Positions 384 to 19,635 of a stretch of DNA of 55,206 nucleotides are shown here, in pieces. The notes under the pieces are model-generated. The model saw only the letters and a program-made list of their open reading frames with translations. It had not been told where the DNA came from and made no database searches. Made by a program: the position numbers and the translations under genes. Each line of letters starts with the position of its first letter. Positions within the stretch are counted from its first letter, which is position 1. The DNA is from Candidatus Cloacimonadota bacterium (GTDB lineage Bacteria > Cloacimonadota > Cloacimonadia > Cloacimonadales > Cloacimonadaceae), in the NCBI GenBank assembly GCA_018433885.1, contig JAHDQK010000034.1:1-55206 (forward strand), written 5' to 3'.

Positions 384-1646
384 TTGAAGTGTTTGAATTG
401 TTCCAAGCCAATATCCTTACCCGATAATTCCAGGGATTTCTTCATATGTCCCTCATGCAGCATGTTGCACATGGTTTGCAGCGCTGATACCAAAGCTCAC
501 CTGCGTCCTCCCCACGTTAGCTATTGCCCAATATGCAAAGAGAAAGTATCCAGCAGCTATGGGCAGGGATTATCTAGTTTCTCCAGAAGCTTGGTTAAAG
601 CCGATTCAAAACTTGTCCTGGCAAACTCAGTTCCACTAGTTCTGGGTTCTGTAAAAAACTTGTTTTGTTTCTGTTACGATTTATTCCTGATAGTGATATC
701 AGACAAAGGCAAAGGCGTGGTTATCAGGGAAGATGAGGTAGTTCACGAGTTTGATCTGAACAAGCTGTTCAATGCCTCGCTCGAGAAGATCGAGCCATAC
801 TCGGGTGGAGTATTGCTATTCAACAGCTCCGGGCATGTTTACAGAATGGCATATTCATCCATTTTTGCTACTTCTCCGGGCGCGGATCAGCTGACCTCCC
901 GGTGTAAGGTGAGTTCCTTTGATCCGCTGACAAATACTCTGGTGTACTATGAAAATGGCATTATTCACAGACTTAATGTGATCACCCAAAGAAGTGAGCG
1001 AGAAGCCACTGATTATCTGGTGCGATCTATTCTTTATTGCGCGCAAAACCTTTTTTATATCGGAGAGAAGCAGAGGCTTTACACTTTGGTAGTGAAATCA
1101 TTTGATACCGGAACTCAGAGCGAGAAAACCTCGCCACATCTTAAAGGGGATGGCTCCATCCTGGCTATTGCAAACGAAAGATTCCTGGCCTTCAGTACCA
1201 GAAATCAAGGCGAAACCCATCTTTGGAGCGGGGCTTGGAAGCATCTAAGCCGCAAGCAGTCCGCCTGGACGATGATCCCAATGACAAGCGCTGCAAACAA
1301 GCTGGTGCTCAAGGATGATAGCTTGTACATTCAATATTTAGACAAAATTGAGCTTAAGGACTGTCAAGGTCTGCAAGGTGGTGTAATGAACACGCAGACA
1401 GAAGTACAGGGGCTGGTGCCGGGTTCTTTGGAAGTATCACAGCTAAGTGATCAGATCTCTTATCAGTGCGTTCAGGCTAATCAAACCTACACTAGCGTGC
1501 TAGCGAACGGATTTGCCCACAAGAATTTCCAATCCAGGGGTTTGAATTCTCGGGTTATCGCCCAAGCGTGGTATAACAACCGGCTGGCTTTTATTGCAAA
1601 AGAAAACAACAGTTATGTGTATATTCGGGAGATGATGGATGAATAG
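384..1646 (+). CDS. Zinc-ribbon protein of unknown function, first gene of the tubulin/Hsp70/motor operon
   Basis: 420 residues from a TTG start with GGAGG at 375-379. The N-terminus carries cysteine pairs C3/C6, C22/C25 and C48/C51, with C32 and H39 between, as in one or two zinc ribbons. There is no signal peptide or membrane segment, so it should be cytoplasmic. The remaining roughly 360 residues are rich in short beta-strand-like stretches and could form a propeller-like domain, but I do not recognise a family. It overlaps the vWA gene by 8 bp, so the two are translationally coupled. An adaptor or scaffold role is inference from the zinc ribbon and operon position only. Confidence 0.8.
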   Translation: MKCLNCSKPISLPDNSRDFFICPSCSMLHMVCSADTKAHLRPPHVSYCPICKEKVSSSYGQGLSSFSRSLVKADSKLVLANSVPLVLGSVKNLFCFCYDLFLIVISDKGKGVVIREDEVVHEFDLNKLFNASLEKIEPYSGGVLLFNSSGHVYRMAYSSIFATSPGADQLTSRCKVSSFDPLTNTLVYYENGIIHRLNVITQRSEREATDYLVRSILYCAQNLFYIGEKQRLYTLVVKSFDTGTQSEKTSPHLKGDGSILAIANERFLAFSTRNQGETHLWSGAWKHLSRKQSAWTMIPMTSAANKLVLKDDSLYIQYLDKIELKDCQGLQGGVMNTQTEVQGLVPGSLEVSQLSDQISYQCVQANQTYTSVLANGFAHKNFQSRGLNSRVIAQAWYNNRLAFIAKENNSYVYIREMMDE

Positions 1647-3231
1647 ATATCTGCTGCTAATCCTACTAATTGGTGTGTCGGCGGTGTTAGGTGGAGTATG
1701 TTTTGTAGTCGATGGTTCCGGAAGCATGCAGGGCTTTGTAAACAGAGGCTCTCTCCTGGCACTGGTGGATGATATCTCTCAAAGCTTGGAAGCTGGAGAG
1801 GGACAAGCCCAATACAAGATATTCAGCTCAGTCACTTCCCAGGAAGTTAGGGTTGAATCCGTTCGAAGAGAGGATATCAACAATAGAGCAAGCTTTAATG
1901 GCAAATACACTTTGCTTGGCAAGATGGCAGAGCAGCTCTTTAATGAGCAGGCATCAGGAAACTATATCATCATAACGGATAACGTGGAAGACGATCCTTA
2001 TACCATCGGAGAATCCGCCAAGTTTTACTCCAAACTAAACGAGAACCAAGTTATCAGTTCCATTGATGTATCGCCTCGAATATTGAACTTCTCCGGCAAT
2101 CCCTATCGGGGGAATGCTTCTCATTACAACGGTTCTACGGGGCTGATCGTGTATTTCGTCTCTACTAACCTGGATGATGCCGCCAGATCCGAGAGGAATT
2201 CATTGCTTCGGAAGCTCCGGGATAAGAACTATGTGCTGTTTCATATCCGTCCAATAACAGCAGAACACATTAGCCTGAAATCACCCCAAAACACCGGGGG
2301 CGGTTTTGAGATCTACTCAAAGGGTCGCAGATATCACTTAAGGGTGCAGTCTAACCGCTCTGGTATTCCTTCGCTACAGATCGATAAAGCCAATACCATC
2401 CGATTTTCGATCATGATGAGATCGAACTACGAGTATATAGGGGTTAGGGAAAACACAGCGGTTAAGGTTGAACACTTCAGGATAAAATCCGACGGTAGAT
2501 ATCTCAGGATCAAAAGACCGATCATCGAGATCAGCCCCTCAAGGCTGCCAAAGTCTTTGGAAGAGGGCGGAGCGCAATTGTTTGACGTGAAGATCGTTCT
2601 CAGGCCCATGCAGGCAAGTTTTATGGACAAACTTAAAGCGATGTTCAATCCTCACAATTGCTCGGTGGAATTTGATCTGGTTTTGGAGACTGGACACAAC
2701 AGCCTGTATATGACAGAAGCCGTCGCAGGAGAATTCTTCACGCGTAACCCATCTGTTTACCAGAAAATCTATTCCAGTGAAGATATTATCTCCTATTTCA
2801 ATCCCCAGGATAACAAGCTGAAGCTGAGTATCTCCAACGAAAATAATCCCCGTGATCCTCGCACCAAAGTGGCTATTGTTTACGATAATCTCCCCCTCTA
2901 TATAGGCTTGGTCTTTGTAGTGGTTTTGATACTTCTGGGCATAGTACTGATCGTACAGATTTCCAGCTCGCCGAAAGAGCTGAAACTTACCATAAAGTAC
3001 AAAGCTACCGGAAAAGTGGAAGAGCATAATCTCACCAGGATGTCATCCGTCAGGATAGATCCCGCAGAGATCAAACGCACCATCAATCGCGTGAGGGTTA
3101 AGCTTCTGGACCCTGAAAACTATTATTTCAAGGATTCCATCTTCAAATCCATGGATCTTCCGGTGAAGAGCTCCTTGGAAATTGTCGATAAACCACACTT
3201 GAATACCATCATGATATCTCTTGATAAATAA
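1639..3231 (+). CDS. Membrane-anchored von Willebrand factor A (vWA) domain protein
   Basis: 530 residues. A hydrophobic N-terminal segment (about 3-19) runs directly into the vWA domain, whose MIDAS DxSxS motif is D25-G-S-G-S29. A single strong transmembrane helix lies at about 418-441, followed by a roughly 90-residue soluble tail. The MIDAS motif predicts divalent-metal-dependent protein-protein contact. If the N-terminal segment is a signal peptide, the vWA domain is extracytoplasmic and the tail cytoplasmic. The gene lies between the zinc-ribbon gene (8-bp overlap) and a small membrane protein gene (11-bp gap). vWA proteins are predicted partners of FtsZ-like membrane-remodelling proteins, which fits the tubulin-fold gene two positions downstream. 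Confidence 0.85.
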   Translation: MNRYLLLILLIGVSAVLGGVCFVVDGSGSMQGFVNRGSLLALVDDISQSLEAGEGQAQYKIFSSVTSQEVRVESVRREDINNRASFNGKYTLLGKMAEQLFNEQASGNYIIITDNVEDDPYTIGESAKFYSKLNENQVISSIDVSPRILNFSGNPYRGNASHYNGSTGLIVYFVSTNLDDAARSERNSLLRKLRDKNYVLFHIRPITAEHISLKSPQNTGGGFEIYSKGRRYHLRVQSNRSGIPSLQIDKANTIRFSIMMRSNYEYIGVRENTAVKVEHFRIKSDGRYLRIKRPIIEISPSRLPKSLEEGGAQLFDVKIVLRPMQASFMDKLKAMFNPHNCSVEFDLVLETGHNSLYMTEAVAGEFFTRNPSVYQKIYSSEDIISYFNPQDNKLKLSISNENNPRDPRTKVAIVYDNLPLYIGLVFVVVLILLGIVLIVQISSSPKELKLTIKYKATGKVEEHNLTRMSSVRIDPAEIKRTINRVRVKLLDPENYYFKDSIFKSMDLPVKSSLEIVDKPHLNTIMISLDK

Positions 3232-3242
3232 AGGAGGAACAA

Positions 3243-3704
3243 ATGAAGAATCTAATGCTATGCTTACTTGCTTTGCTGGTCTCATTTGTACTGATTGGCA
3301 ATCTCTGGGCTCAGGACGCTTATGTTGAAGATGAATATGAGCCCGATTCAACTTACCAAAAAGACTACGACATGACAGACGAGATCAACACGGGGGGCTA
3401 TCTGCCCAACAAGTATTTGGTCATCAGCGTTTGTCTAATGGCTATCGCAATTTTCTACTATCTCTTTCTCAGTTTGTACGAGAAAGAACTGGATAGAGGT
3501 AAGAGTCCTTTGAAGGCTGCAGCAGGTCAGTGCTTGAAATTTACTTTGGTCTCAGGCTTGGTGATTCTATGCGGGATGTTTGCGCTCAACGGCTTGAGTT
3601 TTAGGAACATTGGCGATTTTATTGCTTCCTCACTAGCTTATCTGATGATTATCGGACTGGTTTGGGTAGCTTATTTAGTCGCTTCTATTGTCAAGGTCAG
3701 CTAG
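3243..3704 (+). CDS. Small membrane protein with signal peptide
   Basis: 153 residues, ATG with AAAGGAGG at 3231-3238. A signal-like hydrophobic N-terminus (about 4-23, ending in a WAQD-type cleavage site) is followed by a strongly acidic, tyrosine-rich segment (about 25-50) and three predicted transmembrane helices near 56-78, 96-117 and 124-148. No family recognised. Its position between the vWA protein and the tubulin-fold protein suggests a membrane anchor or accessory part of the same complex. Confidence 0.75.
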   Translation: MKNLMLCLLALLVSFVLIGNLWAQDAYVEDEYEPDSTYQKDYDMTDEINTGGYLPNKYLVISVCLMAIAIFYYLFLSLYEKELDRGKSPLKAAAGQCLKFTLVSGLVILCGMFALNGLSFRNIGDFIASSLAYLMIIGLVWVAYLVASIVKVS

Positions 3705-3715
3705 GGGGAGGACAA

Positions 3716-6700
3716 ATGGCTATTACAACTACATTCATCGATGGGGGATTAAATCCCGTAGCAACCAATGCGGACATGAAAAAGACTCTATTTATTGGTA
3801 TAGGCGGTAGCGGAAAAGAAGTGTTGATGCGGCTGAGAAGAAAGTTCTATGCTGCAACCGAGAACCCCTATGGTTTTGATTTTATCAAGTATTTATGGAT
3901 AGATACGGATATTAGCGGAGTGCCAATCAGTTCTGAGAACTGGGATGTGATCGGGCAGAACATCCAGTTTGGAGTGAGAAACAATATCCATGAATCCCTG
4001 AGTGTTTCAATACAACCTGCAGTCCTGAACAATTTCTACGATCAAGTGCCCCAATATCCTCATATAAAGCACTGGTTGCCCATAGATGCTCTACGTCCTC
4101 TGGGAGCGAACGCTCTCATGAATGGCGCGAAAGCAATCCGACCTCTGGGCAGATTGGCTTTCAGTTGGCATGCCGACACAATAAAAAACAATATTCATGC
4201 CAATCTGCTGGATCTCAATGTGGTCTTCAATGTGCCGGGAGTCGATGTTGATGACAGTATCTCCATCTATATTGTAGGCTCACTTGCTGGTGGTACCGGG
4301 AGCGGGATGTTCCTGGAGATTGCCAAGCTAATTAAGGCAAATTGGCCTCAATACCAGTGTTATGGAGTCTTCTTCCTTTCAGATATCTTTGAAGACGTGG
4401 GAGATAATCGAGTCCGAAACTCCAACTGCTACGCATCTTTGCAAGAGCTGGATTTCTATCAGACTGCAGCCAATGCACTTGATCCCCTCATCGGCAGGGA
4501 AAGGCATATGTTTGAGTTTGTGGAGCCCAATGGAGCAGTAAGGAGCTTTGAATTGCCTCTCTACAACAATATCTTTCTGATCTCCAAGGAGTATTACAAA
4601 TCTCCCGGTGAACAGGATTTTGCCGATCCTTTTGAGATGGTGGCAGAGATATTCTATTTTGATTTTGACAGGTCAGATTTCGGGGCTCAGAAGAGATCGC
4701 AGGCCGTTAATGGTCATATTGCAGGTTCTGCTGCTTCAGTAAAATTTGTGTGGCAGGATGGAGACAAGGAGGTCTCAGTCGAGAATACCTATAGTTCGGA
4801 CTATTCGTCATATGGACTGGCTGGGATATTCCTAAATATCTCCAAGATGAAGAATTGGGCTTCCTATAAATATATATTGGATATCCTGAAGTCACACAAT
4901 CTTGAGCATCCGGCAAAATCCCAGCTCTTTGAGCTTCCCAATGGTACTTTCGCAGTCAAAGAATTTGGCTTTGAAAACATCCTCGGGATGATCTCCAAAG
5001 GGAATCATGCAAACACTGTGGAAGAGGCCTACCGCAGCAAGCTGGAATCTGCCAAACAGGAGAGCCTTACCAAGATAGCTTCCACCATCTCCTTTGATTA
5101 CATGAATCTTGGAACAGTGCAGGATGTCTGCCATAACGCCTTCAATAGGATAGATTCTTTCATAAGCAATCAGCAGGAACTTATGAACCTGGAACTTACC
5201 GAATACCAGGGAACTCCAGGTGACTCCCTCCAGGGCCTCAAAGCAAATCTGGAGAAGACTCTGAAAACTCTGTATCTCGAGCTTGAAAAGCTGATGTACA
5301 GCATTTTGAGCAGAACTGAGGATGGAGGACCCGCTAATGTCCGCGAGATGTTTAGCAGGGTTAATAATCTCCTCACCCAGATGACTGTTAGTAGAGGTAG
5401 CTTTATCACTGACACTACAAACTTGAAAAACAAGCTACCTGAAGAACAGCCCAAGCGACCCGAGATTGTGGTAGACAGCCATATTGGGCAGCTACTGTCC
5501 AGAATCAAAGAATGTGACGAGATCCCGTTTATCTTCCCTTTCTATAAAAACAGAGCAAAAAGGTATTACGAGAAGAAGCTCTCCCGCGAACTGGAGGGCA
5601 TGAACCGGACGATCAAGAAACAGATAGATGACTATTTCATTGAATGGAAGCAGATTCTTGTGAAACGATATGAAGTGGTTTACCGGGAGAAATTGATCGA
5701 ACTCTATGACGCGGCGAAAGCCAGGATTTTAGAGATAATCCGGGCTGATCGGGTGTCTATTGATAACCATAGTTTCCTGGGTTTAAGCCCTCAACTGCAG
5801 AGCTACCAGGATCAGGTTTCTGATTTGATCAACTACTATGATAGCTATGAGTCAGATTTGCGCAGAGTGATAACGACTTCTATCAATCGCAAAATGATCC
5901 TGGATGAGACACTAAATCTTGATCAAGTTTACAAAGATTTTGTGTCCAATTTGGGAGATAAAAGCTGGTTAACTGCTCCGGTTGTGGATGCCTACAATCC
6001 TGAGATAATCTCAAAACACCTCTCAAATCAGGATTTGAATGAGCCTTCCCAAAAGTTTGTCCGTACCCTGGCTCTCTACAGCCGGTATTGCATTTCCGGC
6101 AATTTACCAGAATTGAAGAGAATTCTTATTCGGAATTGTCAGGAAAGGTTCAATCAATTCATGCAGGATGATTCGGTCTTGAACCGTCTGAATCAGTTGC
6201 TGCGCAGCAGACCGGCCGAGACCCAGAATAGTATAAGAAATATGCTCTCGAACTTTAACTTCAGGCTGGCATTGTCAGAGCGGTACCCCAGTATTGACAA
6301 TAGAGTATCGCAAACCGCAGAGAATAACCGTTTGCCGGGCTTACCCAGAGCAGATGCTCATATTGAAACACTACTTGGAAATCTTGGGACCATCGGCCAA
6401 GTGAAGTATCATGGCTCGGATGAGTCGATCCTGTTTTACTCCGAGACTTTTGGATACCCGCTATTTGCTCTGAAGGATATTCAAAAACTGGAGCATGAAT
6501 ACAGGTCGTTGGTTGAAAGAGATGGCATCAGCTCAAAGCAACAACGCTATACCGATATTGTAACAGACTATCTGCGGCCCTTGGTGATCCCCAGTGATAT
6601 CACTGCTATGAAGCAGTTGCTTTCTTCTTGGGAAATGCTCTATGAGGCGATTGTACTAAGAGTGATCCGCTATGAATCAAAAGAATGGAAGATGACGGTG

Positions 6701-7144
6701 GCATTTGCTGAGAATCTTTTTGCCGCACAGAACATCAGCCTGGGTAGAACTCTGGAAGCAGCAGCTCTGCACCTTAGCCAGGCTCAACCCTTGCAACAGG
6801 CGGTGAAAGAGCAAACCTACAACAGGCAGATCGAAAATTATGGAGAAGAGGAAGACCTGCAGGAAATATACTTTGCCCTGTTTGGGAATTTTAACCAGGT
6901 GCTTAGTTTTTCTAAGGCTCAGTTCAATGACCGGTACAGACCTAAGAGTCCCCAAGAATACGTGCTGGAAAAGCTATTGATTAAGTATAGAGCCAAGTAT
7001 ATCCAAGCCTTAGATACTGTGATAAATGAAGATGAAGTAACCCGGAAGCTTGCAGAAGAATATAGAAACCGTCATTTGGTCCGTTCCGGATACGCCGATG
7101 CAGTGCATACTGAAGGTCTGAGTATTTCTCCCAAAGCAGTTTGA
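3716..7144 (+). CDS. Large tubulin/FtsZ-like (Tubulin_2-type) protein
   Basis: 1142 residues. I place the start at the ATG at 3716, which has a strong GGGGGAGG site (3704-3711). The N-terminus has the glycine-rich strand-loop LFIGIGGSGKEV (about 24-35), and near residue 190 is the tubulin/FtsZ signature GGTGSGMF, the phosphate-binding G-box. Together these indicate a GTP-binding Rossmann-like tubulin fold in roughly the first 450 residues. The remaining 700 or so residues are helical and charged, much longer than FtsZ (about 380). The family resembles the FtsZ-like proteins proposed to act in membrane remodelling with vWA and OmpA proteins. It ends 1 bp before the Hsp70-like gene. Polymerisation and GTPase activity are inferred, not shown. 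Confidence 0.85.
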   Translation: MAITTTFIDGGLNPVATNADMKKTLFIGIGGSGKEVLMRLRRKFYAATENPYGFDFIKYLWIDTDISGVPISSENWDVIGQNIQFGVRNNIHESLSVSIQPAVLNNFYDQVPQYPHIKHWLPIDALRPLGANALMNGAKAIRPLGRLAFSWHADTIKNNIHANLLDLNVVFNVPGVDVDDSISIYIVGSLAGGTGSGMFLEIAKLIKANWPQYQCYGVFFLSDIFEDVGDNRVRNSNCYASLQELDFYQTAANALDPLIGRERHMFEFVEPNGAVRSFELPLYNNIFLISKEYYKSPGEQDFADPFEMVAEIFYFDFDRSDFGAQKRSQAVNGHIAGSAASVKFVWQDGDKEVSVENTYSSDYSSYGLAGIFLNISKMKNWASYKYILDILKSHNLEHPAKSQLFELPNGTFAVKEFGFENILGMISKGNHANTVEEAYRSKLESAKQESLTKIASTISFDYMNLGTVQDVCHNAFNRIDSFISNQQELMNLELTEYQGTPGDSLQGLKANLEKTLKTLYLELEKLMYSILSRTEDGGPANVREMFSRVNNLLTQMTVSRGSFITDTTNLKNKLPEEQPKRPEIVVDSHIGQLLSRIKECDEIPFIFPFYKNRAKRYYEKKLSRELEGMNRTIKKQIDDYFIEWKQILVKRYEVVYREKLIELYDAAKARILEIIRADRVSIDNHSFLGLSPQLQSYQDQVSDLINYYDSYESDLRRVITTSINRKMILDETLNLDQVYKDFVSNLGDKSWLTAPVVDAYNPEIISKHLSNQDLNEPSQKFVRTLALYSRYCISGNLPELKRILIRNCQERFNQFMQDDSVLNRLNQLLRSRPAETQNSIRNMLSNFNFRLALSERYPSIDNRVSQTAENNRLPGLPRADAHIETLLGNLGTIGQVKYHGSDESILFYSETFGYPLFALKDIQKLEHEYRSLVERDGISSKQQRYTDIVTDYLRPLVIPSDITAMKQLLSSWEMLYEAIVLRVIRYESKEWKMTVAFAENLFAAQNISLGRTLEAAALHLSQAQPLQQAVKEQTYNRQIENYGEEEDLQEIYFALFGNFNQVLSFSKAQFNDRYRPKSPQEYVLEKLLIKYRAKYIQALDTVINEDEVTRKLAEEYRNRHLVRSGYADAVHTEGLSISPKAV

Positions 7145-7145
7145 T

Positions 7146-9635
7146 ATGGATAAATGCCTTTGCGGATTGCTGATAAGTAGCGATCAATACAACTACTGTC
7201 CCTCTTGCGGGCAGGTGATACGGAGTTTCGATGTCACCTGCCCCCAGAGGGCATATCTGAACGTCCCCTTTACCATAAGTATCCGATCCGGTGGTTCTCA
7301 TGCTCTCCAGATTGATCGGCTTTCTCTTGATGAATCCACTCTGGTGGAGAGTGTTTCACTTAATCCGGGTGCATCTTATGAACAAGATCTAGTGATTGCG
7401 GAAGAGGGGATTTCTATTCTCAAAGTACAAAGTGGCTCGCTGGAAGAAACCTATCAGATCAATGTGGTGGAACGAGGTTCGATAACCCTACGCTGGCAGA
7501 ACAACCAGTTGATCTATGAACTGGATAAAGCCAGCCACCGGGTTTATGTATCCAGAAGCTTGGCAGATAAGACCATCTACCCGGACGAATCTAGTAATTG
7601 GTTTAGAGCCAAGAGCATCCGCCTTAAGGGAGATGGCAGCAGTTTTGAGCTGGATAGACTGAGTAATGGGTTCAAGATCAGCGATGAGCTCTTTGATTAT
7701 CTTCAGGATAAAGGCAGTGCCAATTTGGATATTGAGCTGATCTCAGAAGAAAACCATCGGATCGAATTGTCTGAACTCAGTTTTTATTATGATAGCGAGC
7801 TGCCGGATTTGAAGCTGATCCCGGCAGATGACTACGTGAACAGTAGTCCCCTAGGGGGAGTGCGTGATCAAATAGGCTTCACGCTGGAGTACAGATGGGA
7901 TCAAAAAGAACTCGAACGTCCCATTAATGCCATTACAATAGAATTGAGTGGTAGCGGAATTGTACCAACCAGGAGCAATGAGTACTTTAACAACCAACAG
8001 CGGCTTGAAAAGAAACTCCAAGTTGATCTGGAGAAGGTTCCTTCAGGATTGGGTCGGATAAACGTTAAGCTGACATACGAGATCCAGGAAAGGATTTTTT
8101 GCCGGGTGCAGTGGATTGATTTTCAGGTTAAGGTTATTGATGATATTCAGGTTGACACCAACGGGGTTGTTGCTATTGACTTCGGTACCAGTAACACCTG
8201 TGTGGCTTATATTGAGCAGGTATCTAAAGCCAAAGAACTGTTCCAATACAAGTCTGGTAGTGGCAATGCATGGGGTTTGAATCCGACCATCATTAAGTTT
8301 ATTGAGTTCAGAACAGATGAGGCAAGTATAGTAGAGTATGCAGATCGAAAGGGAGAAGATCGTCCTCTGACTTTTGCCGCCAACTTTAAGCCCCGTCTGG
8401 AGCGGGATGAAGAGCTCTATTTCTGGGATCTTCAAGCTCCGCCAGAGATCAGACCGTTCAGGCCCAGCCAACTGTGCGGTATGTATCTCAATGCTGTTTT
8501 AAATGGATTTGCCCTTGAAATGGGTAACTTTCCGGGAAAGATTATCATGAGTTATCCAGCTTCGTTTTCCAGCGAAGCCAAAGCAAGACTATTCAAGGCT
8601 ATAAATCTGCCAGGTGTGATTATTCATACCGAAGGATCGCTGTCTGAACCTGAAAATATAGCTCTGTATTATTCGCAAATGAATGAATCTATCCGCAAGA
8701 AATTGGAGAAAGACGGCGAGCTAACTATCTGCGTTTTCGATTGTGGGGGCGGCACTACTGACGTTAGTATTGTCAAAATTTCTGAGTCTCATGCAGCCCA
8801 CTTCGAAATACTGGCAACTTGGGGTACGGATAGCTTTTCAGGTAATGTGATTGATTATCTGGTAGGTACTGCACTGGATGGAGATAAAGACTGGTATCCC
8901 AAGAATATTAGAGATCTCTATACAACCAGTAATGAGAGCTTGAAAGAGTATCTGGCGAGGTCTCTATATTATGAAGACCTGAAAAAGGCCGGCCAGATTT
9001 TTGATTCAGACACGCATCATAATGAGACTCGAAAACTTGTGGAAAGTGGCATACAGGCTATGTATGATAGGGTGAGAGGTCTTATGAAAAGCCTTTTTGA
9101 TTTGAGAAAGATGGATACTTTCGAAACAGACTTCCTGATTCTGGCTGGTAATTCCTGTTTTCTGGAGATCTTCAACGACTTGGCAAAGCAGACCTTTGGG
9201 CAAGCAGAGATAATCTGGGAACCGGAGGATGGGAAAAGGGCGGTTGCCCTGGGTGCCTTGGAAGCTTACGAACTGAGGGCGGTGCTGGATATTCGGGGTA
9301 CTACTCTCAGCAGTAACGAGTACTCCGTTCGCTTGAATCTACACGGTTATGAAGAGGTCTTCCCGCCCCTGCTGGATATGAGCCAGGTAACAGAATATCT
9401 TAGTCCTCCCGTGAATCCATCTCAGATTCCAATCCTGGGCAGAGCCTTTATTCGTGATCATGATCAACGGCCCACAATCCTGTTTGAAGTTCCCTGTCCC
9501 AAGACCAGAATAGGAACCGGCAAGATGAGATTCCGGCTCCGCTTCAAGGCCAAAGAGGTTTCCTACGGATGGTGTTCGATTGAAGGGGAGGAGATTATGG
9601 ATGCAGATTATAAGACAATATATAGAGAAGATTGA
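7146..9635 (+). CDS. Hsp70/actin-fold ATPase with N-terminal zinc ribbon and beta-rich region
   Basis: 829 residues. The N-terminus is a zinc ribbon (C4/C6 and C18/C21). Residues about 30-330 look beta-rich, with immunoglobulin-like sandwiches. The actin/Hsp70 ATPase domain then follows: phosphate-1 VVAIDFGTSNT near 341-352, phosphate-2 VFDCGGGTTD near 529-538, and an adenosine-type motif LILAGNSC near 662. The DnaK layout, with an N-terminal ATPase and a C-terminal substrate domain, is reversed here: binding-type domains come first. This is not the housekeeping chaperone. Placed next to a tubulin-fold protein, it may be a second nucleotide-driven filament or switch, or an assembly factor. 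The order is visible; the function is inference. Confidence 0.85.
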   Translation: MDKCLCGLLISSDQYNYCPSCGQVIRSFDVTCPQRAYLNVPFTISIRSGGSHALQIDRLSLDESTLVESVSLNPGASYEQDLVIAEEGISILKVQSGSLEETYQINVVERGSITLRWQNNQLIYELDKASHRVYVSRSLADKTIYPDESSNWFRAKSIRLKGDGSSFELDRLSNGFKISDELFDYLQDKGSANLDIELISEENHRIELSELSFYYDSELPDLKLIPADDYVNSSPLGGVRDQIGFTLEYRWDQKELERPINAITIELSGSGIVPTRSNEYFNNQQRLEKKLQVDLEKVPSGLGRINVKLTYEIQERIFCRVQWIDFQVKVIDDIQVDTNGVVAIDFGTSNTCVAYIEQVSKAKELFQYKSGSGNAWGLNPTIIKFIEFRTDEASIVEYADRKGEDRPLTFAANFKPRLERDEELYFWDLQAPPEIRPFRPSQLCGMYLNAVLNGFALEMGNFPGKIIMSYPASFSSEAKARLFKAINLPGVIIHTEGSLSEPENIALYYSQMNESIRKKLEKDGELTICVFDCGGGTTDVSIVKISESHAAHFEILATWGTDSFSGNVIDYLVGTALDGDKDWYPKNIRDLYTTSNESLKEYLARSLYYEDLKKAGQIFDSDTHHNETRKLVESGIQAMYDRVRGLMKSLFDLRKMDTFETDFLILAGNSCFLEIFNDLAKQTFGQAEIIWEPEDGKRAVALGALEAYELRAVLDIRGTTLSSNEYSVRLNLHGYEEVFPPLLDMSQVTEYLSPPVNPSQIPILGRAFIRDHDQRPTILFEVPCPKTRIGTGKMRFRLRFKAKEVSYGWCSIEGEEIMDADYKTIYRED

Positions 9636-9644
9636 GGTCAGGAT

Positions 9645-9863
9645 ATGAATACTGAACTAATGATGCTAATTGTACTGCTTTTGGGTCAGGTGCAGGTGGG
9701 TTTGCTACTTTGGCTTTCGATCAAACACCGCAAACAGATCAAGCAGGTGGAATCCGATATGGAAAAGCAGTCCAGATTTGCCTCGAGACAGCGGGAAACC
9801 AATAGCCCGCGGGAAGCGAAGCCCAGCCCCAGGAAACGCAGTAGAATCACATGGGAGTATTAA
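9645..9863 (+). CDS. Small single-pass membrane protein
   Basis: 72 residues, ATG with an AGG-rich site (AGGTCAGGAT) just upstream. One N-terminal transmembrane helix (about 5-25) is followed by a very basic tail (KHRKQIKQ, then SPREAKPSPRKRSR). This gives an N-out, C-in single-pass topology with a cationic cytoplasmic tail that could touch nucleic acid or acidic lipids or proteins. The next gene's ATG follows 1 bp after the stop. No family recognised. Confidence 0.6.
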   Translation: MNTELMMLIVLLLGQVQVGLLLWLSIKHRKQIKQVESDMEKQSRFASRQRETNSPREAKPSPRKRSRITWEY

Positions 9864-9864
9864 G

Positions 9865-10608
9865 ATGATTGCCACAGTATTTACAAACCTCTCAGGTGGG
9901 GCATATTTTGCGATGCTTATGGTTCTGACATGGGTCTTAGTCGTCTTGCATCTACTGCTCTTTCGACTCTGGAAGAAGCCCGCAGTTACTTCTGATGCCC
10001 TTGTTCACGGGCAGGAAAGCGATACACAAGAGACGGCAAATCTACCCACTGCCCCAGGGACAAATAGTTATCCTAGTATCAGCATGGAGGATATGCAAAG
10101 CATGCAAGAAGAGATTCTGAATAAGCTTACAGAGATCAAAGCACTCATAGCAAGCTCAGGATCAGGGCAGCAGCAGGATTATCCCCGACGGGAGCCTGAC
10201 ATTTCTTCAGTGGGAAGACACAACAAGGATACAATAGAAGAATTCAGAGCCTATCTGAAGACCTATTATCCCTCTGATGCAGAAAATATCCTGGAGATGT
10301 TCCTCTCCTTTTCTCAACACTTGGCTAATGAACCGGTGCTCAGGGATAATGTGATCAGATGTGCCGCTGCTTTGGATTTTGCCAACCTCTCTGAAAGAAG
10401 AAGCCTGGAGCTTTGCAGTATTGCCTCAGAAGCTCTGGAAAGTTTTCAGATCAAGCTATATTGCCCCAAAATCGGCGATAAGTTCGATCCCGAAAGTATG
10501 AGTCTCAGAAACCAATACTCAGATTCAGAAAGGGTAAGCAAGGTACTATACTTTGGGATTACGAGCAGTAATAGAGAAATACAAAAGGCAGTTGTAAATG
10601 TCGGATAG
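9865..10608 (+). CDS. Single-pass membrane protein with cytoplasmic domain
   Basis: 247 residues from the ATG at 9865; a longer reading frame upstream would overlap the preceding gene completely, so I reject it. A transmembrane helix lies at about 12-35 (AYFAMLMVLTWVLVVLHLLL). A low-complexity linker and a short amphipathic helix (about 70-100) follow, then a soluble acidic domain of about 130 residues. Family unknown. Its 3' end overlaps the next gene by 11 bp. It is probably a membrane-tethered adaptor of the operon's complex. Confidence 0.7.
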   Translation: MIATVFTNLSGGAYFAMLMVLTWVLVVLHLLLFRLWKKPAVTSDALVHGQESDTQETANLPTAPGTNSYPSISMEDMQSMQEEILNKLTEIKALIASSGSGQQQDYPRREPDISSVGRHNKDTIEEFRAYLKTYYPSDAENILEMFLSFSQHLANEPVLRDNVIRCAAALDFANLSERRSLELCSIASEALESFQIKLYCPKIGDKFDPESMSLRNQYSDSERVSKVLYFGITSSNREIQKAVVNVG

Positions 10609-12685
10609 TAAAAGTATTCCGTTGAGTTATCTTAAATGCGATGATGATTGCGTTGTTTTGCAGTTTAATTATGATATTAACTCTCAAAACACTAAATCTC
10701 AATCCAATAAGTTTGTTCGTAAGGAAAATGGTTGGAGCAAAGGAAATACCCAAAGCACAATCAGCCCAGTAAATCTCAGAACTGAGATTCTAAAACGCTA
10801 TCCATTTATTGATGCCAAGGAGATTGTTGAAAAAGCAGATAAGTCTAGCTGTTCAGTTTATTTTGCACACAATAAAATAGAACTATTAGATCATCATGAT
10901 GATCCAGTTGACTCGATAAACGAATTAGCTTTGGTTGATCGAGTAGTGTACCAAGAAAGAGGAAACTCTATTCACTTTGTCTTTATTGGAAAGACAGTGT
11001 TAGTTGAGGCAAGGGATGTGCCAAAAGATGTATTCTATCATATCCTGAAGGGTACACAGAGCTATTTAGAATCATCCATCAAGCAGATAAATTTAAATGG
11101 TGGTGATGGCTATAAGGATATTCCAAGTAATAGCATAGAGGTTTTGCGGAACGGGACTACATACTTCCCTCTTGATATTGAAAAAATAGCTGCGTACTTG
11201 ATGAGGATGGAAGGGGATTATAGCTGTTCTATACCTATTCTTGAATCAGTTAAAAAAATCAGAAGCATAATTCAGGAAGCTATGACTAACGGCGAACATC
11301 ATTCATTTGAGAGGCTTGAGATCAACAAACAATTTACAATTGTGCATTATGGGCCTACTATACAGAAGAAAAAAATACTCAATTGTGCTAAAGATGGGCT
11401 TTTCTATGATTATGAAGCGCTTAAAAAATCAATTCTATCTGAATCAAACCGAGCAGAGGAGTTAGCAAACAAGACTAGCAATGAAGTCGGAACAGTACAA
11501 GATGTAGCTTCTGTAGTTAATCCCAATGATAATCAAGTACAGAATACTCCTGCATGTCAATACCCGACAAACCGTGTGAAACCAGATCAGAATAAGTATA
11601 TAATAAATTTCAAGAAGAACGATACAACCGAAGGTGTTTTCCCCGAGGCACAGTTTAACAAGCAGGGGGGGAGGGGTGTTGAGCAAGAGGTCGAGAACGC
11701 GTTTACTTCCTGTAAATCACTTTCATCGTTTGTTTCTACCTTGGAAAGCATCTTTGAGTTAGATCACACCAGTGTCATTGATGAATTATTTCCTTACATT
11801 CAACTACCTGGGATGTCCATCCACTTAACTCCCTTAGAAAAAGATCGGTGGAAGATTGAAATAAAAGGTACAAAGAAAGCTGATCTGGATAGAATTGAAC
11901 TAGAACAAAAAGACTTCCAGAAAAAGCTCAATCAACAGCAGGAAGAACTCAGATCCTCGATGGAAACAAACAAGGTTAAACTATCAATTCTGGAAAGAGT
12001 TCTGACTTTGTGCAATGTTGATGATTATAACATGTTAGAAGATCGGATAAGAGAGAATCTTGATAACTTAGCTGCCTTGGGAGGGGAAGCTGAGAATCTC
12101 CGCAAAGTTGTTCATCTCTTGCACGCAACACCTGAAAAAGCGAGGGAGAAGGCGGAGTATCTCAGCCAAGCTCTTGCCCCGGGATCATCATTGAAAGATA
12201 CAAGCCTTGATGAGCTAAAGAGCCGAATAGATGAGATGGAAAAAAGTTATAAAAAAACTGGGGAGTTAAGTAGTGAACTGGAGAGTTTCTTTCAACAACC
12301 GGATTCGCTGTTACTGGGCACTTTCCCTCTGATAAAAGAAGAGGTGGGCTCAAAGTACAGTTATTTTACAGACTCTTACAACAAGCTTAGTTCACAGATG
12401 ATTATTGCCGAGGCTATTAAAAGCAAGCTGGCAGATCCTCAGCTCCGCTCCAAGCTTGATCTTGAGATAAATACCCTGAACGAAGAACTTAGGCAATACA
12501 GCCTGGCGATTGAAGTGCCCCAACGCGGCACATCTGCTGATCCATCCAGGCATAAGTTTGTGGGATATGACAGCGGAGGTACCAGGGGGCAGATATCGTC
12601 CGTATCGGCGTGGGGCTTGGTTGAGCTGGAGAATGGCTCCTACAAGAGAACTATCTATAAATCTGAAGTAAGAATATATCAATAG
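10598..12685 (+). CDS. Large protein of unknown function with coiled-coil C-terminal half
   Basis: 695 residues, ATG overlapping the preceding stop by 11 bp. There is no signal peptide or membrane helix. Residues 1-430 are globular with no motif I recognise. Residues about 430-640 are rich in K/E/L/Q heptad-like helices (coiled coil), and a short beta-like tail ends the protein. The first 1.1 kb is visibly richer in A+T, with AAA/AAT/TTT-type codons, than the rest of the gene and its neighbours, which suggests that the N-terminal module was acquired or exchanged separately. It precedes the motor pair by 7 bp, so it may couple the cytoskeletal and stator parts. Function unknown. Confidence 0.75.
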   Translation: MSDSKSIPLSYLKCDDDCVVLQFNYDINSQNTKSQSNKFVRKENGWSKGNTQSTISPVNLRTEILKRYPFIDAKEIVEKADKSSCSVYFAHNKIELLDHHDDPVDSINELALVDRVVYQERGNSIHFVFIGKTVLVEARDVPKDVFYHILKGTQSYLESSIKQINLNGGDGYKDIPSNSIEVLRNGTTYFPLDIEKIAAYLMRMEGDYSCSIPILESVKKIRSIIQEAMTNGEHHSFERLEINKQFTIVHYGPTIQKKKILNCAKDGLFYDYEALKKSILSESNRAEELANKTSNEVGTVQDVASVVNPNDNQVQNTPACQYPTNRVKPDQNKYIINFKKNDTTEGVFPEAQFNKQGGRGVEQEVENAFTSCKSLSSFVSTLESIFELDHTSVIDELFPYIQLPGMSIHLTPLEKDRWKIEIKGTKKADLDRIELEQKDFQKKLNQQQEELRSSMETNKVKLSILERVLTLCNVDDYNMLEDRIRENLDNLAALGGEAENLRKVVHLLHATPEKAREKAEYLSQALAPGSSLKDTSLDELKSRIDEMEKSYKKTGELSSELESFFQQPDSLLLGTFPLIKEEVGSKYSYFTDSYNKLSSQMIIAEAIKSKLADPQLRSKLDLEINTLNEELRQYSLAIEVPQRGTSADPSRHKFVGYDSGGTRGQISSVSAWGLVELENGSYKRTIYKSEVRIYQ

Positions 12686-12692
12686 GAAGGAC

Positions 12693-14156
12693 ATGATGTT
12701 TTTGAGTTTATTCCAGGTAAGTGCGACAGAAGCCTTGATTGCTTATGTTTTAATCGGCTTGTTTGCGCTGTCAGGTATGATTTTGATCACCATCGAACTT
12801 GTACGGCGCATACACTTCGATTCCTACGATCTCTCGGATGAAATCCGCAGATATACCAGAGAATCAAAAGTGAGCGACGAAAGGGTTTTGCTGGATTATG
12901 TGGATAGCTACTTCTCCCGGACTATGCTAGCTTTTGACGAAATTATCAGATTTTTAATCTCAAGTTTGACCATTCTGGGACTACTGGGTACCTTTATTGG
13001 GCTGGCAGTTTTAATCGTACCTGAGTTTAATGAGCTCTCTACTACTGTCAGTATAGGCAACGTGTTCGATCCGGACTTCAAGGATACTTTCGGGAATATA
13101 ACTGATGGCTTCAAAACTGCATTTGGTACAAGTATCATGGGAATAGTCTGTTCGATAATCCTTTCTATCTTATACCATATTCTAAGGCAGAACATCAGAG
13201 CTGTCAGGTCACAATTCACTCGCTTTGAGCTTCCTGCCTTGATCGCCGAGACCAAGAAAGAAACCCTCAGCTACGATCCGGTGGAGTTCTACCACGAAAT
13301 TCAGAACTACTTTATCGATGGCTTGAGGAAGTTTGGAGATACCGCTGCTAAGAACCAGGCTGAGTTTAAGCAATGGTCGGTAACCGTGGTGAAATCCCAC
13401 ACGGAGGCAGTGAAGACTTATGTGGAATCCAACAACAACACCATGAAAGAAGTGCTGGATGAGCTGGGAAAAGAGTACAAGGCATTGAAGCAGGTTAGCA
13501 AAGACAACTTAAGAGTATCGGAAGTGCTGGGTTCTTTGATAGATAAATTGGATGCCTTTGCCGATGTCATTCGCAACTACGATAAAACATATGAGAATCT
13601 CCTTGGGCAGATCGAAAATTTCTCCACGGAGTTTGCCAATGTCTTCTCCCGGATCCAGACCGTGGTTGAGCTTACTACCCAGCCCTCTAATCTGCTCACC
13701 AATCTCTACACGGCTATCTCAACCATGGTGAACAATCAGCATGACCTGTTGACCGGGAACAAGGCCATGATGGAAGGGTTCCGGGCAAACTTTGAGGAGC
13801 TACTTCAAAGCAGTTCAGCCAGGAATGATGCCAATAGCGAGAAGTTTCAGACTATCCTGACGGATCTTCTGATGGATGTGCAGACCGTCTTTTCTCCGGA
13901 TTCTGTTTCCAAGCTGCTGGATCCCCGTTTTGAGATGGTAAAGAATGAACTGGTGAATCTTTCTATATCTCTGGGAACTCTGAACTCCTATGGGAAGAGC
14001 TTGGAAAAAATGGGGGCAGTAGAATCTTCAATGCAGAAAATCAGAGATCTGCTTGCCGAAAAGGGTGCACACCAGCAAGAGTTTGCAAACTTGGAAGCCC
14101 AGCTAAAGAAGATTAATGATAATCTGGGTAGAGTCTTCGAGGCATTGGAGTTCTAA
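12693..14156 (+). CDS. MotA/TolQ/ExbB-type proton-channel protein with long cytoplasmic tail (ZorA-like)
   Basis: 487 residues. Transmembrane helices lie near 12-35, 88-109 and 144-165. The second contains GLLGTFIGL, the family's conserved channel segment. After the last helix come about 320 residues of mostly helical, coiled-coil-like sequence. That is far longer than in TolQ or ExbB and is the hallmark of ZorA-like stators. With the OmpA-type partner 3 bp downstream it should form a peptidoglycan-anchored, ion-driven stator unit like MotAB or ZorAB. The long tail would project into the cytoplasm, where it could transmit torque or a signal to the tubulin- or Hsp70-like proteins; this coupling is inference. 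No ZorC, ZorD or ZorE gene accompanies it. Confidence 0.85.
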   Translation: MMFLSLFQVSATEALIAYVLIGLFALSGMILITIELVRRIHFDSYDLSDEIRRYTRESKVSDERVLLDYVDSYFSRTMLAFDEIIRFLISSLTILGLLGTFIGLAVLIVPEFNELSTTVSIGNVFDPDFKDTFGNITDGFKTAFGTSIMGIVCSIILSILYHILRQNIRAVRSQFTRFELPALIAETKKETLSYDPVEFYHEIQNYFIDGLRKFGDTAAKNQAEFKQWSVTVVKSHTEAVKTYVESNNNTMKEVLDELGKEYKALKQVSKDNLRVSEVLGSLIDKLDAFADVIRNYDKTYENLLGQIENFSTEFANVFSRIQTVVELTTQPSNLLTNLYTAISTMVNNQHDLLTGNKAMMEGFRANFEELLQSSSARNDANSEKFQTILTDLLMDVQTVFSPDSVSKLLDPRFEMVKNELVNLSISLGTLNSYGKSLEKMGAVESSMQKIRDLLAEKGAHQQEFANLEAQLKKINDNLGRVFEALEF

Positions 14157-14159
14157 TCA

Positions 14160-14687
14160 ATGAATAGCTTCACCGATCATAACGAGAGTCTGAACATCTG
14201 GCCATCCTTTGCAGATATTGCCTTCTGTGCCATGGTGGTCTTTCTGATCTATGCACTCTATTTGATGAGCGTTCCCCAGAATGTGAAGGTAGGGAATATT
14301 GATGCAAAAACTGCGGATTTTGCTTCGGGATCTGCTAAATTGCCGCAAGCAGCTTATGCTTCCCTAGATAGTCTGCATGATAAGATAGTGCGGGGTGAGT
14401 ACAGCCCGATGTGGGAAGGTGATTCTACCTATATTATTGTGGTGGCTGGGCACACAGACAATGTCCCATTCTATGATGCAAAGCTTATCAACAACTGGGG
14501 GCTTTCATCAGCCAGAGCTCAAAGCGTTGTGAATTACTTCGTTGATATAAAGGGGATTGATCCTAAAAGAATAAGAGCAATAGGTTATGGAGAGAACAAG
14601 CCAAAGACCAGCAATGCTACTGAAGAAGGCAGAGCGAAAAACCGAAGGATTGAAGTTTTCCTCATGAAATCGGGCGGCAAAATATAA
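14160..14687 (+). CDS. MotB/OmpA-type peptidoglycan-binding stator partner (ZorB-like)
   Basis: 175 residues. A short cytoplasmic N-terminus is followed by one transmembrane helix (about 18-36), with an aspartate, D19, at its start in the context PSFADIAF. This matches the proton-carrying aspartate of MotB, ExbD and TolR. Residues about 70-172 are an OmpA/MotB domain, with GHTDN near 98, LSSARAQSVVNYF, GYGENKP and a final NRRIEVFL. It should bind peptidoglycan in the periplasm and form the stator with the preceding protein, whose gene ends 3 bp upstream. Confidence 0.88.
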   Translation: MNSFTDHNESLNIWPSFADIAFCAMVVFLIYALYLMSVPQNVKVGNIDAKTADFASGSAKLPQAAYASLDSLHDKIVRGEYSPMWEGDSTYIIVVAGHTDNVPFYDAKLINNWGLSSARAQSVVNYFVDIKGIDPKRIRAIGYGENKPKTSNATEEGRAKNRRIEVFLMKSGGKI

Positions 14688-14718
14688 ACCTGTGCTGGTA
14701 TTTGGAGGGAGGATATGA

Positions 14719-15042
14719 ATGAATAAACTAAAGCCCTTGCTAAGATATGTTCCTCATGTATTTATCATGCTGCTGCTCCTCTGGGCTCTAAATCCGGAGA
14801 ATCCCTATGCTTATTATCGGATTATGAGAGTAATCGTCTGCGCGGCATATGCCTATCTCTTTACGTCCGCCATCGGTAGCAAAAAGAAAGAGTGGGCCTG
14901 GGTCTTGGGAGTCCTGGCATTTATCTATAACCCGATAGTATCGCTGCATCTAAACAGAGAAATCTGGACTGTGATAAATGTAGTTTCGATTCTCATCACA
15001 GTCCTTCATATCTGGTGCCACCGAAACTTACAATCAGAGTAA
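14719..15042 (+). CDS. Small multi-pass membrane protein (DUF6804-like)
   Basis: 107 residues, ATG after a strong GGAGGGAGG site (14704-14712). A second ATG at 14715 leads to a stop after three codons and is not used. Three to four short hydrophobic helices are separated by NPENPYAYY and FIYNPIVSLHL, patterns I associate from memory with the DUF6804 membrane family. It ends the operon; whether it belongs to the same machine is uncertain because the gap before it (31 bp) is longer than the others. Confidence 0.6.
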   Translation: MNKLKPLLRYVPHVFIMLLLLWALNPENPYAYYRIMRVIVCAAYAYLFTSAIGSKKKEWAWVLGVLAFIYNPIVSLHLNREIWTVINVVSILITVLHIWCHRNLQSE

Positions 15043-15704: not shown

Positions 15705-16032
15705 TGGACGATATAATCAATTGTTCTACATCTGTTTGCCATGTTTATGGATTCCTGCCTACGAGACTGTGTGAAAACTCCAACGCTTTTAGAACAGAGC
15801 ACTTAGGAGAGAGTCATATAGATGCTTATTATGGGATCTCAACTATTTTTTCAAATCGTATCACCATTTTTTCAAATCGGCAGTTTTGTGGGTTTGCGAT
15901 ATCACGATTTTTTCAAACGAGTATCACGATTATTGCAAATCATCTTATCACTTCTTAAGCAGAAGGTAATCCATTTTATCTAACTCGCAACCAGAAAGTT
16001 GCAAAAAAACCATTAGCAGCACGCCAGTAGGC

Positions 16033-16548
16033 TTATGCAGCTGTTTTCCTCATCCTCGGTTTCGGTTTTATGCCTGATTCCTTACGCAATTTTCCAAGTA
16101 TGGCGGGTTGGATGTAGGTGCCCAGCTTCAGGATCCCCTCTTTTGATAAGACTTTGTACCCGCTGCAGTCGATGCCCACCATATCGATAGATGCCAGTGC
16201 TTCCAGATAAACAAAGACCAGTTGCCTGCTCTTGCCATAGTCTGAGGCAATCTCTCGGATGGAGCAGAACTGCCTGGAGTCCAGCATGTTAAGGATTTCT
16301 TCTGCTACCTGAGTGCTGTAGTTCCACTTGCCTTTTTGATTGAAGCCAACCTGCGACTGATAGCGGTTACAGCAGACGTAGAGCTTGTCTTGAGTTGAAA
16401 TGCACTTGATTTCATGGTTGTTGAGTAGCGTTCTGATGGACTGCTTTACTGTCTTGGTCTCGATTCCGGTTAGCTCTGCTATCGTTTCTGTGTTGAACGG
16501 TTTTCTGTACTGATGGACGAAGTTTCGGATAACATCCATGTTTGTCAT
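16033..16548 (-). CDS. Winged-helix/HTH protein of the transposon
   Basis: 171 residues, ATG overlapping the ATPase gene's stop (ATGA), so translation is coupled. Two helix-turn-helix-like segments are visible: about 17-42 (NTETIAELTGIETKTVKQSI) and about 88-115 (CSIREIASDYGKSRQLVFVY). The C-terminus is basic. A sequence-specific DNA-binding role, as regulator, target-site selector or accessory factor, is likely. I find no TniQ zinc-finger pattern, so calling it TniQ would not be supported. Confidence 0.7.
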   Translation of the reverse strand: MTNMDVIRNFVHQYRKPFNTETIAELTGIETKTVKQSIRTLLNNHEIKCISTQDKLYVCCNRYQSQVGFNQKGKWNYSTQVAEEILNMLDSRQFCSIREIASDYGKSRQLVFVYLEALASIDMVGIDCSGYKVLSKEGILKLGTYIQPAILGKLRKESGIKPKPRMRKTAA

Positions 16549-17261
16549 GGTTCCGTCTCCACCAACGCATTATCCAGCGTGAAGCCTGGGTTTTGCTTGA
16601 TCCTGCCTTCCATGATGTACATCAGCTTCAAGGCTTTTCTGAGGTTGCCGTTGCTGTTGAAATGGATGGTATCTATGAGCCGATCTGTTACTTCCACTTC
16701 CATTATCTCTTTGGCAAGCAGTTCAATATCCTTTCTGCTTGTGGGCTGGAACTCACAGAAGTAGTTGCAGCGGTCAAAGTAGTGCGGATTGATCTGTGCC
16801 AGACGGTCTTTGGCGTTTTGCATCCCCACCAGGATAACTATGCACAGCGTCTCATCCACGATGTCACGGATCGCACCCAAGAGCGCTTCATGCTTGAATG
16901 CATAATCTATCTCATCAATTACGATTACAGTATCGGCACGATCTTCCAAAATACCCAGACAGCGTTGGAACAGGTTATTGGCAGTTCCATACGGTAAATG
17001 CTGCCCCAGGTTGAAGCGTTTGTATAACGCGAGCAGTAACTGCTGGGCAAATGATTTGGGTGTGGTGGTAGCTTCCAACCTGAGATATAGGTATCCTTCC
17101 CTGAAAGCCATGCGCTGGGCATAAGTCGTCTTACCGGATCCGGGACGTCCATACAGCAAGCCCAAGCCCACCATTTCCAGCTTGGGTCTGCTCTTCAGAA
17201 AGGAGATACAGGCATCTGCCTCCACTACGTTGCGGGTCTTGACCAGTTTGGATTGTTTCAT
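16545..17261 (-). CDS. AAA+ transposition ATPase (MuB/TniB/TnsC-like)
   Basis: 238 residues from the ATG at 17261, preceded by GGAG at a good distance; an upstream frame to 17342 would overlap the transposase by 70 bp. Walker A is GRPGSGKTT near residue 38, and Walker B is VIVIDEIDYAF about 70 residues later. Proteins of this type bind DNA as ATP-dependent filaments, choose targets and activate the transposase. Order and spacing (transposase, then ATPase, with an 11-bp gap) are those of TniA-TniB and MuA-MuB pairs. Confidence 0.88.
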   Translation of the reverse strand: MKQSKLVKTRNVVEADACISFLKSRPKLEMVGLGLLYGRPGSGKTTYAQRMAFREGYLYLRLEATTTPKSFAQQLLLALYKRFNLGQHLPYGTANNLFQRCLGILEDRADTVIVIDEIDYAFKHEALLGAIRDIVDETLCIVILVGMQNAKDRLAQINPHYFDRCNYFCEFQPTSRKDIELLAKEIMEVEVTDRLIDTIHFNSNGNLRKALKLMYIMEGRIKQNPGFTLDNALVETEP

Positions 17262-17271
17262 CTTGTGTCTC

Positions 17272-19338: not shown

Positions 19339-19356
19339 CAGCGCCTCCCTTATTAC

Positions 19357-19375
19357 AATAGTAGGTTCTACTATT
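19357..19375. promoter_or_regulatory. Inverted repeat upstream of the transposase start
   Basis: AATAGTAG-GTT-CTACTATT is a perfect 8-bp inverted repeat 19 bp upstream of the transposase ATG (minus strand), covering the expected leader. It is a likely operator for repression of the transposon operon, possibly by the winged-helix protein; the pairing is inference. Confidence 0.45.
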
Positions 19376-19635
19376 CTGTACTGCAATAAGTTGGGAAGTC
19401 CTTTCTGCCGTGAATGCGCTGAGAATACAAGAAATCTACCTCACTAATCCTGGTTAGTGAACCGACCATCTTTTATCTTTAGACCCTGCATCCTTTATTC
19501 CTCAAGAACCAGACAGAAGCATAAGAACCAGTGAAGCAAACCCCTGTTCAAAGCCCATAAACAAATAGCATAAAGACTTTTCCCAAAGCGCTTTAGACCG
19601 AATTCAGACTTGAACCATATCTCCCACACAACCCA

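Follow-up and report, generated by a model that had tools for sequence, protein, structure and literature searches.

A Zorya-type stator, a tubulin relative and an Hsp70-like team encoded in one operon suggest an undescribed machine spanning the bacterial envelope

Introduction

What work might a bacterium perform with a tubulin relative, an Hsp70-like chaperone and an ion-driven motor that are encoded side by side? The question is raised by an 11-gene operon in Candidatus Cloacimonadota, located at positions 384-15042 of a 55,206-nucleotide stretch of DNA, hereafter the window, which comprises bases 1-55206 of contig C21 (JAHDQK010000034.1) of a metagenome-assembled genome (MAG) of 2.42 Mb in 91 contigs, 99.87% complete. 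All of its genes, numbered here in order of position (Table 1), lie on the + strand, with neighbours overlapping or no more than about 30 bases apart. The presence of a Zorya-type motor, a tubulin relative and an Hsp70-like team in a single operon suggests an undescribed motor-plus-cytoskeleton machine that spans the envelope. The gene set belongs to the FtsZl1 class, which has been predicted since 2010 to be a membrane-remodelling system and whose proteins have been without a function ever since.

The original prediction, made from the letters of the DNA, had described a co-directional operon encoding a tubulin-type protein of 1142 residues, an Hsp70-fold ATPase with a zinc ribbon, a membrane protein with a vWA domain and its metal-ion-dependent adhesion site (MIDAS), a MotA/TolQ-like channel with a long tail and a MotB/OmpA partner. 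This layout and these five assignments were borne out by the searches reported below, as were the links drawn to the FtsZl1 class and to the ZorAB motor. Its further reading, in which a stator acts on a tubulin/actin-type assembly in envelope remodelling, secretion or defence, is taken up here as a hypothesis. The gene list was corrected, the eleventh gene being that for a 72-residue membrane protein (9645-9863), and the last gene (DUF6804) perhaps not belonging to the core.

Results and Discussion

The motor genes encode a ZorAB-like stator

In a Pfam scan that took in ten of the operon proteins, gene 9 matched MotA_ExbB (PF01618) with an E value of 5e-4, just under the curated cut-off. A profile of gene 9 built with homologues from three lineages found ZorA as its best match among the solved structures of the Protein Data Bank (PDB) (8qyd, 4.5e-13; 8vvn, a type I ZorAB, 8.6e-12; a 280-residue ZorA construct, 2.2e-8), and no MotA, TolQ or ExbB chain was retrieved at E 0.01. 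Gene 9 also matched the PADLOC ZorA1 model (2.2e-9), while scoring below the NCBIfam cut-offs, and the motifs GL.xTF.G and AF..S of its channel helices were invariant in seven sequences. The adjacent gene 10 matched OmpA (PF00691, E 5e-21), and its profile was aligned to type I ZorB (8vvn_B, 3.3e-21) over a region that includes the transmembrane (TM) helix. Seven sequences again showed an invariant TM aspartate (D19), and no variation either at H98, L115, R119 and R162 in the motif for peptidoglycan binding. Judged by the motif, the latter four are the counterparts of H186, L199, R203 and R254/R259 in ZorB I, residues important for peptidoglycan binding and defence (PMC11890865). Zorya defence is further known to depend on ion flow, on binding to peptidoglycan and on the tail of ZorA (PMC11890865).

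With its long-tailed ZorA-like channel, a ZorB-like partner combining a TM aspartate with a peptidoglycan-binding domain, and ZorA and ZorB as best solved matches, the pair resembles Zorya. Membership in Zorya was nevertheless rejected, as no ZorC, ZorD or ZorE was matched in the operon by PADLOC, the partners being instead tubulin-, Hsp70- and GrpE-fold proteins and a vWA protein. The machine may work in a partly Zorya-like manner, yet with these effector genes missing it is not Zorya. An ion-channel core and a TM aspartate are likewise shared with flagellar MotAB and with TolQR/ExbBD, but there is no flagellar or Ton/Tol context here and it was ZorA, not the chains of those systems, that was matched in the PDB.

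Partners of the stator: a tubulin-like protein, an Hsp70-like ATPase with GrpE-type factors, and a vWA protein

Gene 4 matched Tubulin_2 (PF13809, E 2.9e-42) and encodes 1142 residues if translation starts at 3716. Its T1 (GIGGSGKEV), T2 (LWIDTD) and T4 (AGGTGSG; AGGTGSGM in the alignment) motifs were invariant among homologues, and all of the fold matches listed for a model predicted from four sequences were to FtsZ, TubZ, CetZ or tubulin. The tubulin fold thus stands, albeit on a low-confidence model, and the protein is likely to bind GTP, as judged from its motifs and predicted fold.

For gene 5, a Pfam match to HSP70 (PF00012, E 6.2e-8) was accompanied by a match of the family profile to the DnaK ATPase domain in the PDB (E 2.9e-20, profile positions 356-714). 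The phosphate-1 (IDFGT.N.C), phosphate-2 (D.GGGTTD) and adenosine (GNS) motifs and the N-terminal zinc-ribbon cysteines C4, C6, C18 and C21 were all invariant in five homologues. The DnaK match ended at position 714 of the 856 in the profile, and in the C-terminal remainder, which was without a match, no substrate-binding domain was recognised.

The first pointer to GrpE came from the C-termini of genes 7 and 8, read by eye. Pfam GrpE weakly matched two homologues of gene 7 (0.0055 and 0.063), and an hhalign comparison reached 63%. A PDB search with the whole gene 7 profile returned coiled-coil chance matches only, and one with the C-terminal profile alone returned none. The predicted fold of the C-terminal region was more telling: its 12 best matches were all GrpE chains (best E 1.5e-5, with the 13th at E 1.7), and its last strands were modelled at a predicted local distance difference test score (pLDDT) of about 70-90. 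On this predicted fold, gene 7 is assigned as a GrpE-type exchange factor. Gene 8, which is syntenic with genes of 448, 432 and 453 residues in relatives, was related to gene 7 through their C-terminal regions (hhalign probability 62%, E 7.5e-5) and probably encodes a second such factor, its evidence being weaker than that for gene 7. As a separate housekeeping GrpE was present in every genome tested, the operon genes were taken to be dedicated copies.

Gene 2 carries a signal peptide, one TM segment near residue 430 and a cytoplasmic tail of about 90 residues. It had no direct Pfam match and its profile no PDB match; its MIDAS set (DxSxS, T and D) was invariant in four homologues, and hhalign linked it to annotated vWA proteins with a probability of 90%. 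The predicted topology places the vWA domain in the periplasm, anchored in the inner membrane, with one GrpE-type factor membrane-anchored and the probable second one soluble. The composition of the operon, the topology of its products, their catalytic and ion-binding residues and the linkage described next are drawn directly from sequence or fold.

The gene set is a conserved unit with an accessory distribution

The operon was found in 4 of the 12 genomes of the genus. In two congeners (G041 and G043) the set is complete and its order unchanged, the tubulins sharing 26% and 25% identity with that of the window; in the third (G039, tubulin 47% identical) a short contig carries as much of the set as fits, stopping before the stator genes, and the stator is assumed there. 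A single-sequence search of genome contigs found nothing, and an alignment search led to a locus in a Sericytochromatia MAG (L018), in which the zinc-ribbon gene 1 and the vWA, tubulin, zinc-ribbon Hsp70, GrpE-like, ZorA-like and ZorB-like genes again follow in this order, three of the genes having GrpE-like tails. Shared by two congeners and by a member of a different phylum, this order marks the gene set as a conserved unit, beyond chance; far from lying apart in relatives, the genes stay together. It is scarcely credible, therefore, that unrelated genes were merely assembled here by neighbouring transposons: related transposon ends do flank the operon on both sides, but the conserved order, together with the clade-wide linkage of tubulin and stator described below, refutes such a chance cluster. 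The operon genes do not track the descent of the species: identities among these genomes are 60-75% for housekeeping GrpE, against 25-47% for the operon tubulins.

Of 386 genomes sampled within the phylum to which the Sericytochromatia MAG belongs, 74 gave a match to Tubulin_2. Neighbourhoods were read for most of the strong matches in that sample, and a simpler operon recurred, consisting of vWA, FtsZl1, ZorA-like (mostly 510-740 residues) and ZorB-like genes. In a tree of 87 tubulin domains, a stator gene was present in the operon for 35 of the 36 members of a cyanobacterial clade and for none of the 29 in its sister clade. The five Hsp70-bearing tubulins formed one separate clade (Shimodaira-Hasegawa approximate likelihood-ratio test, SH-aLRT, 97). 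The tree was built quickly and has long branches, which leaves its deeper joins unsure. Two further arrangements were seen. An FtsZl1 subtype of five cyanobacterial loci (L033, L034, L036, L099 and L100) combines vWA, a tubulin of 910-915 residues and a protein of 1,014-1,032 residues, without a stator, and on an Azospirillum plasmid (L040) the Tubulin_2 gene is surrounded by caspase-family and OmpA-family genes.

Relation to predicted FtsZl1 and GAP1-N2 systems

FtsZl1, together with vWA and OmpA proteins, was proposed as a membrane-remodelling system by Makarova and Koonin in 2010 (PMC2875224). As described there, FtsZl1 has an N-terminal FtsZ-like domain and a long C-terminal region, and is accompanied by a vWA gene and an OmpA-type gene, all of which hold for the present operon. 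P-loop GTPase and/or protein kinase genes, which are reported as frequent, not universal, in the FtsZl1 system (PMC2875224), were absent from the ten proteins scanned with Pfam, while Hsp70 and GrpE are present. Moreover, the main text of the article treats the OmpA proteins as beta-barrel proteins, whereas the one encoded here is a ZorB-like subunit of a stator, beside a ZorA-like partner; a word search of that text did not find "MotA". In 2010, a reviewer asked how a cytoplasmic tubulin works with outer-membrane OmpA proteins. If the OmpA protein is instead taken for the half of a Zorya-type stator that binds peptidoglycan, its ZorA-like counterpart being encoded alongside, this objection would fall away and an energy source would be named.

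Stators are gated ion channels, which favours an alternative in which the operon is a conflict system and the stator its effector: a tubulin/Hsp70 assembly would sense infection and open the ZorAB-like channel, depolarising the membrane and stopping the cell, with no torque transmitted. Conflict systems with tubulin, HSP70, GrpE and vWA components, acting through nucleoside triphosphate (NTP)-dependent assemblies, were indeed predicted by Kaur et al. in 2020 (PMC7159879), and the operon resembles these GAP1-N2 systems in its tubulin-family, vWA, HSP70 and GrpE genes, as it does in a predicted NTP-dependent assembly near the membrane. However, the GAP1-N2 systems are centred on a GTPase with N-terminal zinc ribbons, which is missing here (no P-loop GTPase match in Pfam), and in them tubulin and HSP70/GrpE are separate, non-overlapping themes (PMC7159879). 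A long coiled-coil tail and intact peptidoglycan-binding residues also exceed the needs of a pore, and the effector-channel explanation was judged distinctly unlikely.

Nor does the article on GAP1-N2 systems use the word MotA (PMC7159879), and in the literature searched no text joins a tubulin-like protein, vWA and a stator. As far as the literature could be searched, the stator identity and the whole combination are therefore new. The statement in the original prediction that no characterised system has this set holds within the same literature, but predicted relatives do exist (PMC2875224, PMC7159879).

Defence neighbours of related loci

In Deinococcus sp. QL22, the stator form lies on a plasmid directly after a McrBC-type pair (EVE-AAA and DUF2357-PDDEXK). 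Within this locus (L044, 343-18020) all genes are co-directional, the pair coming first and being followed by a gene at the vWA position, a TM gene and the tubulin, MotA-type, OmpA-type and LRV-repeat genes. On three Thermales plasmids (L041, L045 and L046) a module of vWA, tubulin and a 680-residue gene lies beside brxL, one of them with HmaB and HmaC (an Hma locus) and one with DrmD- and DrmMI-like genes (DISARM-like). Within the genus itself, the operon of G041 is directly followed by a PARG-type and a NadR-like gene (L017, 21543-23108); the latter, named by eye, was missing from all other genomes of the genus. With this gene absent there and full-length relatives of the other flanking gene only 41-42% identical, a check for an empty site of the G041 operon in the genus gave no clean one. 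A viral or phage origin was rejected, as viral contigs held no relative and there was one weak partial phage match.

A proposed machine, weighed against envelope remodelling

The operon is best read as an accessory, ion-driven trans-envelope machine, a chaperone-bearing form of the FtsZl1 systems that most likely responds facultatively to threats such as phage or envelope damage and does not serve as a housekeeping cytoskeleton, although we would put the chances of this being right and wrong about level. In such a machine, the vWA domain and the peptidoglycan-binding part of the ZorB-like subunit would sense a change in the envelope, upon which the stator would open and turn. Its long cytoplasmic tail may then act on the tubulin-like assembly, which the Hsp70/GrpE team would load, remodel or dismantle, the whole constituting the putative threat response.

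This reading draws on a gene order that persists across phyla and, within the genus, at tubulin identities of 25-26%, on the single clade of Hsp70-bearing tubulins and on the way in which the stator tracks the tubulin clade in cyanobacteria. It is further favoured by a stator that best matches ZorA/ZorB, with invariant counterparts of ZorB residues that matter in Zorya, and by a GrpE fold in gene 7 beside a separate housekeeping GrpE. The patchy occurrence in the genus, with tubulins so much more diverged than housekeeping GrpE, and the related FtsZl1 modules that adjoin Hma and BrxL, DISARM-like/BrxL and McrBC-type genes, argue for the same conclusion.

Several observations weigh against it. 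The T7 catalytic loop was not identified in gene 4, for which the model was poor (pLDDT 48.6, a low confidence that itself counts here), making polymer formation by its product hypothetical; Makarova and Koonin likewise report that T6-H7 could not be identified (PMC2875224). The connection between stator and tubulin is one that we infer from operon context. Pfam and PADLOC found no nuclease or other known effector in the window operon, and the Thermales modules that do lie in defence loci have no recognisable stator. In the flanks of 17 cyanobacterial stator-type operons, PADLOC matches were no more numerous than in controls from the same genomes (75 flanking versus 75 control proteins). With relatives in defence loci on the one hand and no enrichment at cyanobacterial flanks on the other, the evidence on function is mixed.

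The absence of defence islands around the cyanobacterial stator-type operons is what would be expected under the 2010 proposal (PMC2875224) of envelope or membrane remodelling, in which the tubulin-like protein would shape or constrict the inner membrane in an accessory growth, vesicle or secretion role with no part in defence, and the stator would couple this shaping to peptidoglycan. Most of the products other than the tubulin, the Hsp70 and those of genes 1 and 8 are membrane or envelope proteins, as this explanation would have it. A patchy and rapidly diverging distribution within one genus, and the location of some relatives inside restriction or BREX-like loci, speak against it, and it was considered somewhat unlikely.

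Returning to the ion-driven threat-response machine, a more specific form can be offered tentatively, its prospects being rather below even: a peptidoglycan-anchored rotary stator would work directly on a tubulin polymer managed by Hsp70/GrpE, giving a motor-driven trans-envelope cytoskeleton of which cyanobacteria and Deinococcus would have a reduced form. The operon also adds a second family to the long-tailed stators, one with a candidate target in the cytoplasm, so that what the tails act on could be probed by two or three point mutations in cultivable strains of cyanobacteria or Deinococcus.

Remaining genes and surroundings of the operon

Table 1. Genes of the operon and the neighbouring transposon (positions in the window)
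Feature	Position	Strand	Description
Gene 1	384-1646	+	420-residue cytoplasmic protein: N-terminal zinc ribbon, then beta-rich region (read by eye)
Gene 2	1639-3231	+	vWA protein: signal peptide, periplasmic MIDAS (DxSxS..T..D), 1 TM, cytoplasmic tail
Gene 3	3243-3704	+	153-residue multi-TM protein between vWA and tubulin genes (hydropathy)
Gene 4	3716-7144	+	FtsZl1 / Tubulin_2: N-terminal GTPase domain and long C-terminal region
Gene 5	7146-9635	+	DnaK-type ATPase (about residues 340-715) preceded by a zinc ribbon and a beta-rich region; C-terminal region short
Gene 6	9645-9863	+	72-residue small membrane protein
Gene 7	9868-10608	+	Predicted membrane-anchored GrpE-type nucleotide exchange factor
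Gene 8	10598-12685	+	695-residue soluble protein with GrpE-like C-terminal domain
Gene 9	12693-14156	+	ZorA-like stator subunit: 3 TM and coiled-coil cytoplasmic tail of about 300 residues
Gene 10	14160-14687	+	ZorB-like stator subunit: 1 TM with ion-binding Asp D19, OmpA-type peptidoglycan-binding domain
Gene 11	14719-15042	+	DUF6804, 107-residue four-TM protein
Transposon	15830-19900	-	Helix-turn-helix protein, TniB-like ATPase, Mu-type transposase; self-contained, not part of the system

Gene 1 has syntenic homologues of 422, 402 and 424 residues; its profile found no relative in the PDB. Same-position homologues of gene 3 occur in loci L009, L010 and L012, and in Deinococcus a 109-residue gene takes that position. 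Gene 6 shares a C-terminal tryptophan motif with genes of 190, 162 and 91 residues at the same place in relatives. Gene 7 encodes about 246 residues from the ATG at 9868, the longest open reading frame (ORF) starting at 9670. Gene 11 matched PF20619 (E 6e-21); as no homologue was recognised at this place in L010, L012 and L018, it is probably outside the operon core. Scans for promoters, terminators, RNA families and tRNAs gave nothing decisive for the operon.

Nothing upstream of the operon is visible, because only 383 bases, free of any long ORF, separate gene 1 from the end of the contig. The Mu-type element downstream has inverted end repeats at 15838-15941 and 19719-19738, and diverged copies or ends of it were found on nine other contigs; since it is bounded by ends of its own and the operon lies outside them, the operon was rejected as its cargo. 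Repeats at the left edge of the contig (61-150) are similar to this type of transposon at its outer end, which apparently places the operon between a pair of related elements, with the contig break at that edge. Near the right end of the contig, T5orf172, a ResIII-type helicase and a Bro-N protein are encoded (47701-50211 and 53179-54033), possibly marking a region of defence or mobile genes, over 30 kb away from the operon.

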